Positions 2,634 through 50,947 of a stretch of DNA of 51,100 bases are shown piece by piece. The notes beneath the pieces were generated by a model. That model saw nothing but the letters and a program-made list of their open reading frames with translations, was not told the DNA's origin and made no database searches. A program made the position numbers and the translations under genes. Numbering within the stretch: position 1 is the first letter of the stretch; each line of letters opens with the position of its first letter. The DNA is from an uncultured Oscillospiraceae bacterium. GTDB lineage: Bacteria; Bacillota; Clostridia; Oscillospirales; Oscillospiraceae. The DNA is taken from the NCBI GenBank assembly GCA_947626905.1, contig CANQUE010000011.1, positions 1 through 51,100 of the forward strand, read 5' to 3'.

Positions 2634-3617
2634 ATGTTTCAACAGCTGATCGACTCCCTGCGCGCCCGGCCCCGCAAGATCGTCTTCACCGAGGGCAACG
2701 ACCCCCGTATCCTGGAAGCCGCCGCCCGGCTCCTGTCCGGCACCTTCCTGACCCCCATCCTCATGGGCAATGAGCTGGAGATCCTGTCCGCCGCCCAGAA
2801 ATACGGCTTCAACATCCGGGGCGCCACGATCATCGACCCCAAGACCTACCCCGACACCGAGGCCATGGTCCAGAAAATGGTGGAGCTGCGCCACGGCAAG
2901 ATGACCGAGGAGCAGTGCCGGGAGGCCCTGCAGCACCGCAACTACTTCGGCACCATGCTGGTGGCCATGGGCCACGCCGACGCCCTGCTGGGCGGCGCGA
3001 CTTATTCCACCGCCGACACGGTCCGTCCCGCCCTGCAGCTGATCAAGACCAAGCCGGGCAACAAGATCGTCTCCTCCTGCTTCATCATGGTCAAGCCCAG
3101 CCCCACCGGCGACAGGACCGTCCTGGCCATGGGCGACTGCGCCATCAACATCCACCCCACCGAGGACGACCTGGTGGAGATCGCCACCGAGACGGTGAAG
3201 TGCGGCCGCCTGTTCGGCATCGACCCCAAGGTGGCCTTCCTCAGCTACTCCACCTTTGGCTCCGGCAAGGGTGAGGACGTGGACAAGATGCGCAACGCCG
3301 CCGAGCGGGTGAAGGCCATCATGCCCAGCGTGCCCATCACCGGCGAGATGCAGTTCGACGCCGCCGTGAGCCCCGTGGTGGCCCACACCAAGTGCCCGGA
3401 CGACCGGGTGGCCGGCTACGCCAACGTGTTCATCTTCCCGGACATCAACGCCGGCAACATCGGCTACAAGATCGCCCAGCGGCTGGGCGGCTTCGAGGCC
3501 TACGGCCCCATCCTGTGCGGCCTGAACGCCCCCATCAACGACCTGAGCCGCGGCTGCAACGCCGAGGAGGTCTATTCCATGGCCATCATCACCGCCGCCC
3601 AGGCCAATATGGTGTAA
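2634..3617 (+). CDS. pta: Phosphate acetyltransferase
   Basis: Interconverts acetyl-CoA and acetyl phosphate, the first step of acetate fermentation. The 327-residue length fits the short class I Pta of Firmicutes. Typical blocks are visible: KIVFTEGNDPRILEAA at the N-terminus, the GGATYSTADTVRPALQ region, and the C-terminal PDINAGNIGYKIAQRLGG and GPILCGLNAPINDLSRG, which form the active-site region. GAGAGGAGA at 2618-2626 supports the ATG at 2634. The gene stands alone; the usual partner ackA is not adjacent. Downstream lie a perfect hairpin and the structured element at 3654-3800. Confidence 0.96.
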   Translation: MFQQLIDSLRARPRKIVFTEGNDPRILEAAARLLSGTFLTPILMGNELEILSAAQKYGFNIRGATIIDPKTYPDTEAMVQKMVELRHGKMTEEQCREALQHRNYFGTMLVAMGHADALLGGATYSTADTVRPALQLIKTKPGNKIVSSCFIMVKPSPTGDRTVLAMGDCAINIHPTEDDLVEIATETVKCGRLFGIDPKVAFLSYSTFGSGKGEDVDKMRNAAERVKAIMPSVPITGEMQFDAAVSPVVAHTKCPDDRVAGYANVFIFPDINAGNIGYKIAQRLGGFEAYGPILCGLNAPINDLSRGCNAEEVYSMAIITAAQANMV

Positions 3618-3618
3618 G

Positions 3619-3648
3619 TTTCGTTTGAATGCCAGCATTCAAACGAAA
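3619..3648 (+). other. Perfect 14-bp inverted repeat directly after pta
   Basis: Arms 3619-3632 and 3635-3648 are perfect reverse complements separated by two bases. It starts two bases after the pta stop. There is no U-run on either strand, so it is not a canonical intrinsic terminator. It may be a 3'-end-protecting hairpin or part of the larger element that begins at 3654. Confidence 0.75.
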
Positions 3649-3653
3649 AAATC

Positions 3654-3800
3654 GCGGCCCGCTGCAGCGCAAAACGCCCCGTCCTGTTCAGGACGGGGCG
3701 TTCTCGTTTGCGGGCCGAGAAGTGTATGATCTCCGAGGTACACGCCCCCGGAGATCATATCCGACTTTATTCGCCTCTGCGGCGGCAAACTCTGCGAGGC
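3654..3800 (+). ncRNA. Structured dispersed element, copy A
   Basis: Shares long identical blocks with 50733-50899 on the other strand. The blocks are GCGGCCCGCTGCAGCGC (3654-3670), GGGCGTTC (3696-3703), TTGCGGGCCGAGAAGTGT (3708-3725), GTACACGCC (3738-3746) and TTCGCC, CTGCGGCGGC, TGCGAGGC (3770-3800). The first and third blocks can pair (CGGCCCGC with GCGGGCCG), enclosing a local hairpin at 3673-3702. The GTACACGCC block sits in the loop of an 11-bp hairpin (3725-3735 with 3749-3759). This stem differs in sequence from copy B but is still paired. I do not recognise the family. No gene starts downstream of this copy; it lies between convergent genes. Confidence 0.7.
3673..3702 (+). terminator. 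Hairpin within element copy A, possible pta terminator
   Basis: 12-bp perfect stem (3673-3684 with 3691-3702), loop TGTTCA. It is followed only by CTCGTTTG, so terminator strength is doubtful. It occupies the variable branch of the structured element. Confidence 0.45.
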
Positions 3801-3813
3801 AGAGAGGCCCCCT

Positions 3814-6480
3814 TTAGCCCCGGACCACCTCGAAGAAGATCTCGTCCGTGCCTGTGGGCAGGCCCTTCACGGTGAAGAAGTGCAGCTCGTTGTTATCCAC
3901 CTTGCCCACGCTGGCGTAGGGGCTCAGGCTCTTCAGCTTATAGCCCGGCTTCAGGTTGAAGAAGTTCTCCGCCATATGGTAGGAGGCAAGGCTGCCGCTT
4001 TCGTCCAGGAATATGAACCGGGAGGTCCCGTCGCCGGCTCTGCTGCCGCCCAGCGGGTCCTTGATGGTGACCTGCAGCACCCGGGGCGCGCCGTCGCCAT
4101 GGATCATAGTCATCTCGATGTCCTCGTCGTTGGAGACGTCCGTCTCCCAGTACAGCTCACAGCTCAGGCCGTCGCCGCTGGGGCTCAGGCCGTAGCCGCC
4201 GCCGTAGCCCTCGGAACACTTGATGCCGTAGCCGTTTTCAAGGCAAATGAACAACAACAGGCTGTGCGTTTCCACTTCGCCGCTGGCCTCCACGGAGATC
4301 ATGCCCGCGGGGTCCACATTGTGGATGATGATATGGCCGCCGCCCCGGAGGGTGTAGGTGTAGGTATCGCCGTCGATCACAGGCTCATAGGCTTCGTGGT
4401 AGAACGTGCCGTTGGCCGAGGCGCCGTAGTCGGCGTAGAGGTCGCCCTCGGGAATGCCGGTGTTACACCACTTCTCCAGCGCGGGACCGGAGGAGAAGTC
4501 CGCCACATGGGGGTGGCTGGGTACGACCTTGCTCAGGCAGTCGGTGCGCACATAGCCGGTATAATCCCAGCCGGTGAAGCCCTCGCCGGTCTCGTACTCG
4601 TGGTACACCACCGGGGTCCAGCCGTTCTCGTCGGGACCCAGGCGGGACACCTCGTAGGTGGAATAAAGGGTGCAGATTACCTCGTAGCTCGTCCCCGGGC
4701 CGGAGTACAGACGGGTCAGGTTCCGGGTGCACCACATGATGTCCTCGCCGGAGCGGTCCAGATCCCAGTAGGTCTCGGACCACTGCTGTATCCACTGGCC
4801 GCCGTCCTCGCCGTTGTCATACAGGCCGTCGTCGATCTTGTCCCGCTTGGGCTTGATGAGGTTGGGGTTGTCCAGATTCCGCTCGGTGTGGGAGGCAGGG
4901 GCCTCGTAGGTCACCACCGTGTCCTCCGGCTGCTGCTCTGTGCCGGCGGCGGGCATACTGGTGGGATAGCAGCCCACCAGCTCGTCGTACCGCAGCAACA
5001 TGGCGCATACCTCCGCCCGGGTGGCGGGGTTGCCGGGACGGAGGGTGCCGTCCTCGTAGCCGGTGACGATGCCGTAATCCAGCGCCCACTGCATGGCCAT
5101 CTGGGCATAGGGCTGCACGTCCCCGCCGTCGGAATAGTTGCCCAGCAGGCTCCCGGACCAGGGGGTGGGCTGGCCCGCCATGCGGTACAGCATGGCCGCC
5201 AGCTGCTCCCGGGTGACGGCGCTGTCCGGCTCGAAAGAGCTGTCGCTGGCGCCGTTCACCGCGCCTATGGCGTTGGCCCAGGCGACCGCGTCCTTATAAT
5301 AGTCCGCCGTCAGGTCCTGGAACGCGGCGGCCCGTTCCGCGATGGGCGTCCCGGCCTGGCGCCAGATCATGGTCACGGTCTGGCCCCGGGAGGCGCAGGC
5401 GTTGGGGGAGAAGGTGTCCTCGCCGGTGCCGGCGATCATGCCGGCGGCATAGGCCCGCTCCACCGTGTCCTTATACCAGGCGCTGTCCGCCACGTCCTTG
5501 AAGGTGCCGGTGGCGGCGATGGGCGCGGGCTGGTCGGCGGCCGGTCCCTCCGCCGCCGGGGCGGGGCCCTCTTCCGTTTCCGGGGCGGGCTGGTCCTCCG
5601 GGGCCGTGAAGGGCTCGCCGGCCTTCACCACCGCGATGGCGAAGCTCTCCGCGTCGTCGTTCACATGCAGCACATAGCGGGTGCACCCCGGTTCCCAGTC
5701 AGGCAGGGTGGGGCTGGTGACCTCGGCCACATAGCCGCCCTCCAGCACCTGAATGGTATAGCCGCTCTTCACCGTATAGGCGAACTCACCTCCGGTGGTC
5801 ACGACGCGCCGGCCGGTCCCGTCCTCCAGAGTATCCTCCCATTCCCAGGAGGAACCCCAGTTATCCCCCGAGGACACCACGTCCCAGGAGAAGTTGTAAA
5901 ACGTAAACGGGATGACCTTCGGCAGGATATCGTCGGTGGGCACCACGCTGACCGTCACGGTCCCGCTCTCCGGGGCCGCCACCGTCACAAAGCGCCAGAC
6001 ATAAAAATCGTCGCTGCTGCTCCCCAGCAGCATGTTGGAGAACTCGTCCTTCTCTATGCTCCCGCCGTCCACGGTGAGTTCATATTCCGGCGCCACGCTG
6101 AACACGATCTCGCACCCGGGCGCCACGGTGACCTGGGTCGCCAGGCTCCCGCTCTCGTCCACCCAAACCTTCTTTGGGTCGGCATACTCGCTCTCGTAAT
6201 AGCCGTAATAGGTGCCCTCCGGATGGGTGTAGTAGTGGGTCCCGTCCGGGCCGTCATAGTGGTAGAACTCCACCTGCTCCACCGCGCCGGTGAGGCTCAC
6301 CGTCACGCCCGCCGCCGCTTCCGGCGCGTCCAGGGCCATGGTCTGGGGCGCGTCCGCCGGGGCCTCCTCCGTCTGCGCCGGTTCGGGCTCCGGGACCTCC
6401 TCCCCGTCCGCCAGGGCGGTCACAGGCAGGCACAGGATCATCAGCGCCGCCAACAGCGCGCTCAGCCATCTCTTGTTCAT
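3814..6480 (-). CDS. Secreted S-layer-homology (SLH) protein with SH3-like segment
   Basis: A large surface protein of 888 residues. A signal peptide covers residues 1-24 (NKRWLSALLAALMILCLPVTALA). An unassigned N-terminal part follows to about 320. Three SLH repeats then appear at about 326-380 (FKDVADSAWYKDTVERAYAAG), 386-440 and 448-500. SLH repeats anchor proteins to pyruvylated cell-wall polymers. Around 585-660, LTRLYSGPGTSYEVICTLYS resembles a bacterial SH3 domain. The C-terminal 200 residues are unassigned. The start at 6480 is chosen from AAAGGAGG seven bases upstream. It is the last gene of a sigma factor / membrane protein / SLH operon, which suggests envelope-stress-controlled expression (inference). 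Confidence 0.85.
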   Translation of the reverse strand: MNKRWLSALLAALMILCLPVTALADGEEVPEPEPAQTEEAPADAPQTMALDAPEAAAGVTVSLTGAVEQVEFYHYDGPDGTHYYTHPEGTYYGYYESEYADPKKVWVDESGSLATQVTVAPGCEIVFSVAPEYELTVDGGSIEKDEFSNMLLGSSSDDFYVWRFVTVAAPESGTVTVSVVPTDDILPKVIPFTFYNFSWDVVSSGDNWGSSWEWEDTLEDGTGRRVVTTGGEFAYTVKSGYTIQVLEGGYVAEVTSPTLPDWEPGCTRYVLHVNDDAESFAIAVVKAGEPFTAPEDQPAPETEEGPAPAAEGPAADQPAPIAATGTFKDVADSAWYKDTVERAYAAGMIAGTGEDTFSPNACASRGQTVTMIWRQAGTPIAERAAAFQDLTADYYKDAVAWANAIGAVNGASDSSFEPDSAVTREQLAAMLYRMAGQPTPWSGSLLGNYSDGGDVQPYAQMAMQWALDYGIVTGYEDGTLRPGNPATRAEVCAMLLRYDELVGCYPTSMPAAGTEQQPEDTVVTYEAPASHTERNLDNPNLIKPKRDKIDDGLYDNGEDGGQWIQQWSETYWDLDRSGEDIMWCTRNLTRLYSGPGTSYEVICTLYSTYEVSRLGPDENGWTPVVYHEYETGEGFTGWDYTGYVRTDCLSKVVPSHPHVADFSSGPALEKWCNTGIPEGDLYADYGASANGTFYHEAYEPVIDGDTYTYTLRGGGHIIIHNVDPAGMISVEASGEVETHSLLLFICLENGYGIKCSEGYGGGYGLSPSGDGLSCELYWETDVSNDEDIEMTMIHGDGAPRVLQVTIKDPLGGSRAGDGTSRFIFLDESGSLASYHMAENFFNLKPGYKLKSLSPYASVGKVDNNELHFFTVKGLPTGTDEIFFEVVRG

Positions 6481-6493
6481 CTTCATACCTCCT

Positions 6494-7243
6494 TTACCGT
6501 TCAAACAGTTCTTCGGCATAGACCGTCATCTCCTCCCGGCTCATGCCCTGGGAGATGATCTCGATCCACACCCCCCGGACCTCGTCGGCCCAGGCAAGGC
6601 TCATCCTTCCTTCGTCCTCTACCAGCAGGGCGTACGCCCCGTGCACATAGGTCTGCTCGCCGCCGTCCGGGGAGCCGGCATACATGGCGTAGCTCTCCCC
6701 CGGCTCGATCACGGTCATGTCCACTTCCACCTGGCCCCCCTGGCCGTTTCCGTACAGGATCACCAGCATCCCGGGCAGGGAGTGGAACTGGATCAGGGAA
6801 TAGCCCTCCGGGGCCTTGTCCGGGTCGAACACCTTGTCCAGCCGCTGGTCGGCGGGCAGGGCCGCCTCGCCGCCGGAGAAGCTCCACCGGGCGTTCACCC
6901 CGTCCCGGACCACCGTCAGATGGGGCCGGGACCGGAGAAAGCCGTCGCTGCTGGCATACACGGCGGTGAGAAGGCTGGCCGCCACCGCCGCCACCACCAT
7001 GGCCCGCACCGCGTGGCGGCGCAGCTTGCCCATGGCCAGCCGGCGGCTGCGCCGGGCCATGGCCTGGCGGATGGTCTCCCGGCAGCGGCTGTCCGCTCCC
7101 TCCGGAGGCGCGGCGGCGGGGTCCGCCCCCAGCGCGTCCAGCTCTCCGTCCAGCGCCGCTCCCTCCTGGCCCACCACCTGGGCCATCAGGCTCCGGAGCA
7201 GGGCGTCCTCCGGATCAGTTTTCGGTCTGTTCCAATTCGTCAT
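6494..7243 (-). CDS. DUF4367-like membrane protein, candidate anti-sigma partner
   Basis: A 249-residue protein. The N-terminal 75 residues are charged and cytosolic-looking. One membrane segment lies at about 80-96 (AMVVAAVAASLLTAVYA). The C-terminal half is extracellular and resembles DUF4367, ending LAWADEVRGVWIEIISQGMS then EEMTVYAEEL. This layout (sigma factor gene overlapping a single-pass protein with DUF4367) recurs in Clostridia, and an anti-sigma or sensor role is the usual inference. No classical zinc-binding anti-sigma motif (HxxxCxxC) is visible. It overlaps the sigma gene by 29 bases and ends 13 bases before the SLH gene starts. Confidence 0.7.
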   Translation of the reverse strand: MTNWNRPKTDPEDALLRSLMAQVVGQEGAALDGELDALGADPAAAPPEGADSRCRETIRQAMARRSRRLAMGKLRRHAVRAMVVAAVAASLLTAVYASSDGFLRSRPHLTVVRDGVNARWSFSGGEAALPADQRLDKVFDPDKAPEGYSLIQFHSLPGMLVILYGNGQGGQVEVDMTVIEPGESYAMYAGSPDGGEQTYVHGAYALLVEDEGRMSLAWADEVRGVWIEIISQGMSREEMTVYAEELFER

Positions 7244-49478: not shown

Positions 49479-50726
49479 TCACGGCTCCGGGTCGATGCCG
49501 TGGCCGGACAGGGCCTGGGTGCGGCGTTTGCGGAGGATGGAGCCCGGCGGCGCGGGGACCGGCAGCGCCATGCGCAGGGCCATCTTGGCGTGGCTGGCGG
49601 CGGCCACCGGCGCGCCCTCCCCGTCCCATATCTCCCCGGCGGTGAAGGCCAGGGGCTCCGCCCCCGGCATGAGCAGCTCCAGCCCGTCCCCGGGGGAGAA
49701 CCGGTTGCGCTGGGTGAGCCAGGCGCTCCCGTCGCCGTCGCACCGCTCCACCACCGCCGCCACGTCATAGCGGGAGAAATAGCAGGCGTCGGCGGTATAC
49801 TGGCCCGGCTGGCCGAAATAAAAGCCGGTGCAATAGGGCCGGTGGCTGACGGCCAGCACCTCCTCTTCCCATACCGGCTCCAGAGGCCGGCCCGCCAGCG
49901 CCGCGTCCACCGCGTGGCGGTAGGCGTTGGTGACCGCGGCGGCGTAATAGGCAGACTTGGTCCGGCCCTCGATCTTCAGGCTGCTCACCCCCGCGTCCAG
50001 AAGCGCGGGGATGTGGCCGATCATGCACATATCCCGGGAATTGAAGAGGTACGTCCCCCCGTCCTCGACCAGCTCCATATACTCCCCGGGCCGCTTTTCC
50101 TCCATCACGTGATATTTCCACCGGCACGGCTGGGCGCACTGGCCCTGGTTGGCGTCCCGGCCGGTCAGGTAGTTGGACAGCACGCACCGCCCGGAGAAGG
50201 ACACGCACATGGCCCCGTGGACGAAGGCCTCCAGCTCCAGGCCCGCCGGGGCCCGAGCCCGGAGGGCCGCGATCTGCTCCAGCGTCATCTCCCGGGCCAG
50301 CACCACCCGCTTCGCCCCCAGATCGTAGAACATCCGGGCGGTCTCGGCGTTCATCACCCCCGCCTGGGTGCTGATGTGGATGGCGGCGCGGGGGGCGTAG
50401 CGCTTCGCCAGGGCCAGCACCCCCAGATCGGAGACGATGAGCCCCGCCGCCCCCGCTTCGTCCAGGCTCTCCAAATACGCCGGCAGCTCGTCCATCTGGC
50501 TGTCGGTGGGGATGGTGTTCACCGTCACATACATCTTCACGCCCCGCTCCCGGCAGTACGTCCCGGCCCGGGCCATCTCCCGGGGGCCGAAGGACCCGGC
50601 GGCGGCCCGCATGCCGTACCCCGGCCCCGCCAGATACACCGCGTCCGCCCCGAAGGCGACGGCCATCGTCAGCTTTTCCCAATTTCCCGCCGGAGCCAGC
50701 ACCTCCGGACGTTTTGTTCCATCCAT
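49479..50726 (-). CDS. U32-family protein, TrhP-type tRNA/rRNA hydroxylation factor
   Basis: 415 residues, annotated in this family as peptidase U32. Members (TrhP, RlhA) hydroxylate tRNA U34 or 23S rRNA C2501 with prephenate-linked chemistry. Motifs: PEVLAPAGNWEKLTMAVAFG, ADAVYLAG, FVHGAMCVSFSGRC, and the Fe-S-associated cysteines in SNYLTGRDANQGQCAQPCRW and DMCMIGHIPALLDAGVSSLK. Length fits TrhP. The ATG at 50726 has GAGG seven bases upstream. That GAGG lies inside the conserved TGCGAGGC block of structured element copy B, so its translation could depend on that RNA fold. Confidence 0.9.
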   Translation of the reverse strand: MDGTKRPEVLAPAGNWEKLTMAVAFGADAVYLAGPGYGMRAAAGSFGPREMARAGTYCRERGVKMYVTVNTIPTDSQMDELPAYLESLDEAGAAGLIVSDLGVLALAKRYAPRAAIHISTQAGVMNAETARMFYDLGAKRVVLAREMTLEQIAALRARAPAGLELEAFVHGAMCVSFSGRCVLSNYLTGRDANQGQCAQPCRWKYHVMEEKRPGEYMELVEDGGTYLFNSRDMCMIGHIPALLDAGVSSLKIEGRTKSAYYAAAVTNAYRHAVDAALAGRPLEPVWEEEVLAVSHRPYCTGFYFGQPGQYTADACYFSRYDVAAVVERCDGDGSAWLTQRNRFSPGDGLELLMPGAEPLAFTAGEIWDGEGAPVAAASHAKMALRMALPVPAPPGSILRKRRTQALSGHGIDPEP

Positions 50727-50732
50727 ATCTTA

Positions 50733-50899
50733 GCCTCGCACAGTTCGCCGCCGCAGCGGCGAAGAAAGGTGGATCGTTTTTCCGGCGGCGTGTACGTCGG
50801 AAAAACACTTCTCGGCCCGCAAGCATGAACGCCCTTGGGGTCCCCCCACGGATCCAGTGAAGCGATTCGCCTGTTCCGACGAGCGCTGCAGCGGGCCGC
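50733..50899 (-). ncRNA. Structured dispersed element, copy B, in the leader of the U32-family gene
   Basis: Minus-strand reading: GCGGCCCGCTGCAGCGC (50899-50883), GGGCGTTC (50834-50827), TTGCGGGCCGAGAAGTGT (50822-50805), then a 9-bp hairpin whose loop holds GTACACGCC (50795-50787), then TTCGCC..CTGCGGCGGC..AACT.TGCGAGGC ending at 50733. TTCGCCGC/GCGGCGAA forms an 8-bp stem with loop TGCG near the 3' end. The last block contains the ribosome binding site of the U32 gene. It shares all conserved blocks with 3654-3800, but the variable branch is longer. Confidence 0.7.
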
Positions 50900-50907
50900 T
50901 CTCTATT

Positions 50908-50947
50908 GGCAAAGAAATGCCCGGCTGCAAAGCAACCGGGCATTTCT
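50908..50947 (-). terminator. Terminator of the ABC permease operon
   Basis: Arms 50913-50924 and 50936-50947 (12 bp perfect), with further pairing inside. The minus strand continues TTTGCC. It separates the permease operon from element copy B. Confidence 0.8.

Follow-up and report, generated by a model that had tools for sequence, protein, structure and literature searches.

What kind of element places the same elaborate fold, built from different bases, in two intergenic spacers of one bacterial contig? The window, i.e., the whole stretch of 51,100 nucleotides from an uncultured Oscillospiraceae bacterium analyzed here, contains two such copies, A on the plus strand and B on the minus strand, and a sequence-only reading had seen in them a candidate new RNA family under selection for its structure. 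Direct reading of the letters bears out most of the description on which that proposal was founded. The blocks of 17, 18, and 9 bases (GCGGCCCGCTGCAGCGC, TTGCGGGCCGAGAAGTGT, and GTACACGCC) are common to both copies in the same order, the stem presenting a 13-base loop is TATGATCTCCG/CGGAGATCATA in A and GTTTTTCCG/CGGAAAAAC in B, with different bases and the same pairing, loop positions 2 and 12 go from G/C in A to C/G in B, and the outer helix CGGCCCGC/GCGGGCCG is present. The branch enclosed by this helix is variable, as claimed, its inner hairpin differing in length and sequence in the alignment of copies. The proposed pseudoknot between GTGT beside the stem and ACAC in the loop found no support, because GTGT is no more common with ACAC loops (27 of 129 copies) than with other loops (23 of 61).

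Anatomy of the two copies

A covariance model of the element (R1) was built from an alignment that includes both A and B. By this model copy A is a complete element (positions 3621 to 3800, plus strand; 182 bits over 180 of the 180 model positions) that reaches further 5' than the stretch from 3654 to 3800 singled out before, by a first hairpin at 3621 to 3646. It starts 3 nt past the stop codon of pta, the phosphate acetyltransferase gene (2634 to 3617, plus strand), which thus carries the copy at its 3' end, and its tail ends, at 3800, 13 nt short of the convergent gene for an SLH-domain protein (3814 to 6519, minus strand). Hairpin 1 (TCGTTTGAATGC/GCATTCAAACGA, 3621 to 3646, with double changes in 9 of 12 pairs) corresponds to the first hairpin of other genera, which derives from a TIR and is described below. 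It is followed, on the same strand, by helix 2, assigned from the sequence and the pairing in the alignment, with its 5' strand CGGCCCGC at 3655 to 3662 and its 3' strand GCGGGCCG at 3710 to 3717, which enclose the inner hairpin of variable length and sequence (3673 to 3702). Hairpin 3 (3725 to 3759) has an 11-bp stem and the apical heptamer loop TACACGC at 3739 to 3745, and after a conserved unpaired segment (consensus ATCCNACTTTATT, 3760 to 3769) come hairpin 4 (3770 to 3789), imperfect in copy A, and the conserved tail CTCTGCGAGGC (3790 to 3800). This tail equals the inner part of an IS1182-like right end; copy A lacks the outer part, which in other genera reads TTTTTTGACAAGCTG. The sole open reading frame of at least 60 amino acids beginning inside copy A is a 62-amino-acid frame (3629 to 3817), and the element, of ca. 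180 nt, has no transposase gene of its own.

Copy B comprises a body and tail at 50733 to 50900 on the minus strand (R1 match at 50733 to 50935, 124 bits). It lies directly upstream of a U32-family gene (TrhP/UbiU-like, 49479 to 50726, minus strand), its tail ending 6 nt ahead of the start codon at 50726. Its hairpin 3 (50776 to 50806) is GTTTTTCCG/CGGAAAAAC with the loop ACGTACACGCCGC, and in the place of hairpin 1 there is, read directly, a terminator-like hairpin with a T-run (AAATGCCCGG..CCGGGCATTTCTTT, 50911 to 50946, minus strand).

A widespread family and its covariation

The further copies that a new family calls for do exist. With copy A as the query, blastn retrieved relatives, B included, in 34 of the 35 genomes of the genus, with at most 27 per genome. 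The statement that these blocks belong to no known family also stands: Rfam (release 15) gave no match at gathering thresholds in the whole window, the best sub-threshold scores being 19.6 (A) and 17.7 bits (B), which rules out a known Rfam family, and among the papers listed in searches of an open library we recognized none as describing the element. R1 matched 170 of the 300 sampled genomes of the bacterial family (75 of 106 genera), and yet this frequent repeat is absent from Rfam. Within the order, 37 of 295 genomes had matches, 20 in the window's family and 17 in five other families, one of these supported by a single weak match (E 3e-4); within the phylum there were 2 of 299, both in the window's family. 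In more distant families, as judged from 20 regions (one of which is from the window's family), the plan is unchanged but the stems differ greatly in sequence. An exact 23-base pattern from hairpin 3 occurs in records titled Oscillospiraceae, Clostridiales, Ruminococcaceae, and similar, and also in the isolate Pseudoflavonifractor gallinarum DSM 107456, a Dysosmobacter sp., and a Butyricicoccus sp.; R1 matched 10 of the 10 loci with this pattern that were tried. One exact 23-base pattern had no match in viral contigs, nor had the body of copy A, used as the query, in plasmids and phages, searches that divergent copies could escape.

Six genomes of the genus searched more fully yielded 7, 23, 24, 16, 31, and 7 R1 matches at an E-value limit of 0.001, with palindromes read backwards or chance hits among the weaker ones; weak matches on the opposite strand at an element are its own palindromes in reverse. 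The window's genome has seven, three of them above 100 bits. The whole-genome R1 searches (40 genomes) scored at most nine candidates per genome under strict filters, and their copy numbers are lower bounds. Mean identity between copies is 81.0% within a genome (88 pairs) and 67.4% between genomes (2057 pairs). Hairpin 1 was considered as a separate repeat of the genus and rejected, as 31 of the 33 exact TCGTTTGAA hairpins found in five genomes begin a sense R1 match. Another genus repeat, with CCCCAAAAGGCAGGCGTGCCTTTTGGGG-like and GAGAGGAGG blocks, was seen at L050, L121, and L129 and is seemingly unrelated to the element. In P. gallinarum (L257), two copies have a long variable branch with common sequence, perhaps a second repeat inside the element.

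The element measures ca. 180 nt (about 180 to 220) and consists of five hairpins, conserved unpaired segments, and the tail CTCTGCGAGGC. In an alignment of 29 copies, the 52 pairs of the five hairpin units are paired in 95.4% of the cells, against 33 to 50% in slid controls, and 32 of them show double changes, with none of 500 shuffles attaining the observed value in any of five measures. The covariation first seen in two copies therefore holds with more of them, and chance or artefact is excluded by the shuffles and by the blastn relatives in 34 of 35 genomes.

As a control for the nature of the pairing we used 68 distinct tRNAs (of 70) from the loci analyzed, counting only their acceptor and T stems and only rows in which 10 or more of the 12 pairs form. 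In 66 copies from other genera, 609 cells are changed on both sides and 39 on one side; in 59 copies from the window's genus the counts are 434 and 30 (alignments A2 and A3, each reduced from 71 rows by removing weak or opposite-strand ones), and in the tRNA stems they are 310 and 57. G-U pairs make up 0.2 to 0.5% of hairpins 1, 3, and 4 outside the genus and 0.4 to 1.9% within it, 3 to 5.5% of helix 2 and its inner part, and 9.1% (74 of 816 cells) of the tRNA stems. A near absence of G-U would be the pattern expected of perfect DNA palindromes, maintained by selection or by template switching, and its scarcity in hairpins 1, 3, and 4 suggests maintenance of the palindromes at the DNA level, with the reservation that terminator hairpins may also be poor in G-U. 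It should be noted, as a warning, that covariation nearly without G-U pairs need not indicate an RNA gene.

These same counts could mean that the covariation is mainly mutational, template-switch correction keeping the DNA palindromes perfect and the body being a passive hitchhiker: two-sided changes prevail more strongly than in tRNA stems, and G-U is much rarer (0.2 to 1.9% against 9.1%). We consider this unlikely, as such correction does not readily explain the conserved unpaired segments, the covariation of the long-range helix 2, or what is found in the apical loop of hairpin 3. There, positions 1 and 7, scored in 190 of 204 copies, are T..C in 139, C..T in 50, and T..T in one. This non-Watson-Crick covariation holds in 189 of the 190 copies, and the two positions have switched jointly in 11 supported independent cases on a quick FastTree tree (p about 0.001). 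Strand correction cannot produce a T.C/C.T covariation, but whole-loop exchange between copies could. Together, the loop covariation and the conserved unpaired segments suggest that some factor reads the folded body, as RNA or as single-stranded DNA.

Duplicated hairpins and IS1182-like ends in other genera

Outside the window's genus, many copies are flanked by a locus-specific direct repeat that is a whole terminator-like hairpin. This duplication was present in 29 of 89 rows of the first scored set (in which two overlapping starts of one locus, L178, were entered as two rows), against 0 of 445 swapped-flank controls. In an enlarged, overlapping, nonredundant set, it was found in 39 of the 115 copies outside the genus, and in 0 of 598 swapped controls. 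The enlarged set contains 204 nonredundant copies, each with a recognizable tail, core, and 60 nt of flank; 55 of 204 came from 120 stretches among the matches listed in the contig scan, and for 178 both neighbor genes were called, by our own codon-usage caller (not Prodigal). The duplication was scored in a P. gallinarum isolate (L246) and in a Butyricicoccus sp. (L263), and in another family (L378 to L380) several copies lie, by eye, between two copies of a terminator-like hairpin. Also by eye, the upstream hairpin copy is often without a T-run, and the downstream one often retains it.

The sequence between the tail and the duplication is nearly constant, about TTTTTTGACAAGCTG, and the element ends in these genera (about CAGCYTGTCRAAAAAG) resemble those of autonomous IS1182-family elements in the same bacterial family. 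They are imperfect inverted repeats, about GAGACTGTCRAAAAAG at the 5' end and about CTTTTTTGACAAGCTG at the 3' end, and in hairpin 1 the left end pairs with an inverted copy of itself. In some loci of another family (L381, L383, L385, L389, L393, and L394), hairpin 1 is immediately preceded by a further long hairpin, TTCACTTGGAATTGCGCAGGCGCAATTCCAAGTGAA or a variant of it, which may be a common insertion target or an additional module, and at L376 to L379 (G499) an extra hairpin, GCGTGTCGAG..CTCGACACGC, lies between the terminator-like hairpin and hairpin 1. A palindromic, intergenic repeat with numerous copies 3' of genes could also be of the REP/BIME kind, spread by an HUH transposase (TnpA-REP/RAYT or IS200/IS605-type). 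We hold this to be very improbable, as long hairpin duplications disfavor it and the element ends resemble those of the DDE-type IS1182 group; we know of no REP or IS200/IS605-type elements with long target duplications or DDE-type TIRs.

The transposases of the putative partners carry the Pfam domains DUF772 and DDE_Tnp_1_6, and two of them scored 393.8 and 388.6 bits with NF033551 (IS1182 transposase; cut-off 270). In this bacterial family, IS1182 ends are of the type CAGNYTGTCRAARAAC, followed in several cases by a short hairpin. By eye, their ends are mostly flush against terminator-like hairpins, the left end at L406 having no adjoining hairpin. Both ends could be located for 11 distinct elements (30 loci). 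In four of them (L396, L397, L403, and L407) a hairpin of 29 to 35 bp is duplicated, flush at both ends; seven are without duplication, one lying at a contig edge and one having 35 nt of flank. Duplications in the IS1182 family are, according to ISfinder, variable and partly long. In several of the seven without duplication, the two ends adjoin hairpins that differ from each other. The same arrangement is seen in the IS1182 elements at L398, L400, L417, and L418, which may have recombined or been inserted in another mode. In one genome, G318, the end of an IS1182 element adjoining a terminator-like hairpin, CAGCCTGTCAAAAAACCTCGCC, differs little from the reverse complement of CAGCTTGTCAAAAAAGCCTCGC, with which the element copies of that genome (L157 to L160) end on their 3' side; since the match runs through CCTCGC, the conserved tail belongs to the IS-like end.

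The whole-hairpin duplications and the IS1182-like ends, both from other genera, are the basis for reading the element as transposable, and probably the family consists of non-autonomous IS1182-type DNA transposons (MITEs) targeting terminators. As to the hallmarks of MITEs, TIRs matching an IS1182 element are found in other genera, A and B keeping only the tail CTCTGCGAGGC; target duplications are found outside the genus and are lacking at A and B; presence and absence at an orthologous site are seen at pta. In the mechanism that we propose, an IS1182-family transposase would connect the ends of the element to the feet of the terminator hairpin (as a cruciform), the entire hairpin then being duplicated by repair. 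The 5' hairpin (left end plus inverted copy) resembles, in other genera, an A-stem-T terminator, so that insertion should be nearly harmless, a route by which mobile DNA could colonize gene ends at almost no cost. The body (helix 2 and hairpins 3 and 4) would be a recognized nucleic-acid fold, functioning either during transposition, in the form of a cruciform or of single-stranded DNA, or in RNA form at the 3' ends of mRNAs.

Several observations stand against the MITE classification. An IS deletion derivative should not have a body conserved over families, and most element-bearing genomes have no detected partner. Of 250 genomes of the family, 64 had PF13751, as did 3 of 12 genomes chosen because they contain copies; the latter figure argues against a resident partner as the rule, with assemblies being incomplete. 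Close relatives of one transposase were found in 20 of 300 genomes. One genome of the same genus (G024) has a single PF13751 or close-transposase match. The window's genome has none, so it is probable that neither A nor B is mobilized at present.

At the IS1182 ends of five IS loci, no counterpart of the element body was seen by eye. This bears on the possibility, to which we give limited credence, that the element is mobile and depends, for its movement or for the control of that movement, on a body folded as RNA or single-stranded DNA. The transposase or some other factor would recognize this body, and the transposition substrate would be the fold and not the ends alone. As would be expected, several families retain the body plan with stems of different sequence, duplicated copies retain it too, and the conserved unpaired segments and the T.C/C.T loop covariation point the same way. 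However, autonomous IS1182 ends are without the body, as judged by eye, and yet some such elements show hairpin duplications, so the body is not needed for the duplication reaction as such.

Among known systems, group IIC introns insert next to terminator hairpins, a preference shared by the element, which at ca. 180 nt is too short for intron domains or a reverse transcriptase and, unlike these introns, is flanked by a duplicated target. The closest parallels to the MITE that we propose are IS1272 and TnSha1, IS1182-family elements of staphylococci that target hairpins, several of them proven terminators, without sequence specificity (PMC4923244; PMC5678879). The partner transposases here are of the same DDE family (NF033551), and the target is likewise a hairpin or terminator. 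In the published insertions, as far as the available text of these reports goes, the hairpin is partly or wholly removed and there is no target duplication (PMC4923244; PMC5678879), which speaks against the MITE reading, as the element duplicates the whole hairpin (39 of 115 copies outside the genus). It also differs from both in its size of ca. 180 to 220 nt, in lacking a transposase, and in its multi-hairpin body. Pathway b of the model in PMC5678879 does predict whole-hairpin duplication, the very pattern at copies outside the genus, which are natural evidence for a reaction of IS1182-type elements that was, in the available part of that report, only modeled. Prokaryotic MITEs, as described in the available part of PMC10969869, are similarly small and intergenic, with IS-like ends, target duplication, and stable folds. 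They are typically AT-rich, whereas the element has 48 to 66% GC (strong matches), and they differ from it in that its body plan is kept and covaries over several families and in its long hairpin duplications. The pneumococcal BOX, RUP, and SPRITE are also dispersed structured repeats; SPRITE resembles a Rho-independent terminator, and BOX is transcribed as an operon extension at either end (PMC3049150). They belong to another genus and have other sequences, and the available portion of that report describes no duplication of terminator hairpins. The element is best classed as an IS1182-type MITE with an unusual conserved body and hairpin-duplicating insertion at terminators, absent from Rfam.

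Gene ends in the genus of the window

The picture is different in the genus of the window. None of its 89 copies has a duplication, the outer end is, by eye, unrecognizable in nearly all of them (L029 and L118 retain possible traces), and hairpin 1, commonly TCGTTTGAAAGG/CCTTTCAAACGA, has a sequence unlike that of other genera. For A and B themselves the MITE reading would thus be one of homology, as no copy of the genus is duplicated and hairpin 1 differs. The median distance from the stop codon to a copy is 1 nt in the genus (quartiles 0 and 3) and 55 nt for duplicated copies elsewhere. Between genes of the same direction, they are in sense at 32 distinct loci and in antisense at 3 (p = 4e-7), whereas elsewhere the counts are 6 and 5 loci for duplicated copies and 28 and 12 for non-duplicated ones. 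The contrast between duplicated copies and those of the genus suggests that the element inserts without preference for an orientation and that the bias lies in which copies are retained. Divergent genes flank just 1 of the 178 copies. Where the neighboring genes converge, the spacing to each of them is 25 nt or less for 29 of 35 copies in the genus, so that the element is often nearly all the DNA between the two; the corresponding counts elsewhere are 0 of 15 for duplicated copies and 4 of 27 for the others. Convergent gaps of the genus that have no element measure 62.5 nt in the median (n = 20; quartiles 48 and 134; 6 of 20 of at most 50 nt).

Sense orientation and a position right behind the stop codon, in this genus, are what a dedicated, non-mobile cis-acting RNA (a 3'-UTR regulator or a new class of terminator) would show, the duplications then being of other origin. 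The strong covariation and the loop covariation of positions 1 and 7 (189 of 190 copies, 11 supported switches) also fit it. We nevertheless regard such an RNA as improbable, in view of the whole-hairpin duplications (39 of 115 copies outside the genus) with IS1182-like ends, the absence of orientation bias among duplicated copies (6 against 5 loci), the up to 31 matches per genome, weak ones counted, and the scarcity of G-U. The proposal of the sequence-only reading thus fares unevenly. The conserved, covarying, structured family is real, and RNA as the cause of its covariation is not supported, the inference being weakened by the hairpin duplications, the IS1182-like ends, and the near absence of G-U in hairpins 1, 3, and 4. 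The body may still act as RNA or single-stranded DNA, since both the loop covariation and the sense bias in the genus speak for a fold that matters.

A terminator-targeting MITE would fit the gene ends of this genus if its copies there had lost their outer TIRs and the duplications, come to sit flush behind stop codons in sense, and taken over the 3'-end role of the terminator they replaced. Judging from their position, the copies of the genus have probably been exapted as a 3'-end element in place of a terminator, which would be a possible instance, within one bacterial genus, of terminators being taken over by a transposon. We offer the fuller scenario only tentatively: a transposon-borne folded module may have spread over many Oscillospirales genera via terminator-targeting transposition and been exapted in one genus, where it would replace canonical terminators with a bidirectional, U-tract-poor 3'-end element (terminator or mRNA-stabilizing) whose heptamer loop is read by an RNA- or single-stranded-DNA-binding factor. 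What counts against a 3'-end role is the lower T content of hairpin 1 in the genus, where the best T count in 7 nt averages 3.46 against 4.67 elsewhere, so that this hairpin does not qualify as an orthodox intrinsic terminator.

The pta locus, which carries copy A in the window, shows gain and loss of the element at one site, which we read as replacement of the terminator. Of 30 loci, 28 were used, two with partial genes being omitted. A complete element was found in 6 of the 28, a partial one in 2, and none within 330 nt or the available flank in 19, with one locus having no flank. Many of the element-free pta loci have, by eye, an ordinary terminator-like hairpin. A comparison of two genomes (G011 and G032) indicates, also by eye, that the right arm of the terminator-like hairpin persists behind the element. 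At another locus 3' of pta (L113, in G025), a remnant of the 3' end of the element (GCGAACTCTGCGAGGC) lies behind an intact terminator-like hairpin, a trace of a lost copy.
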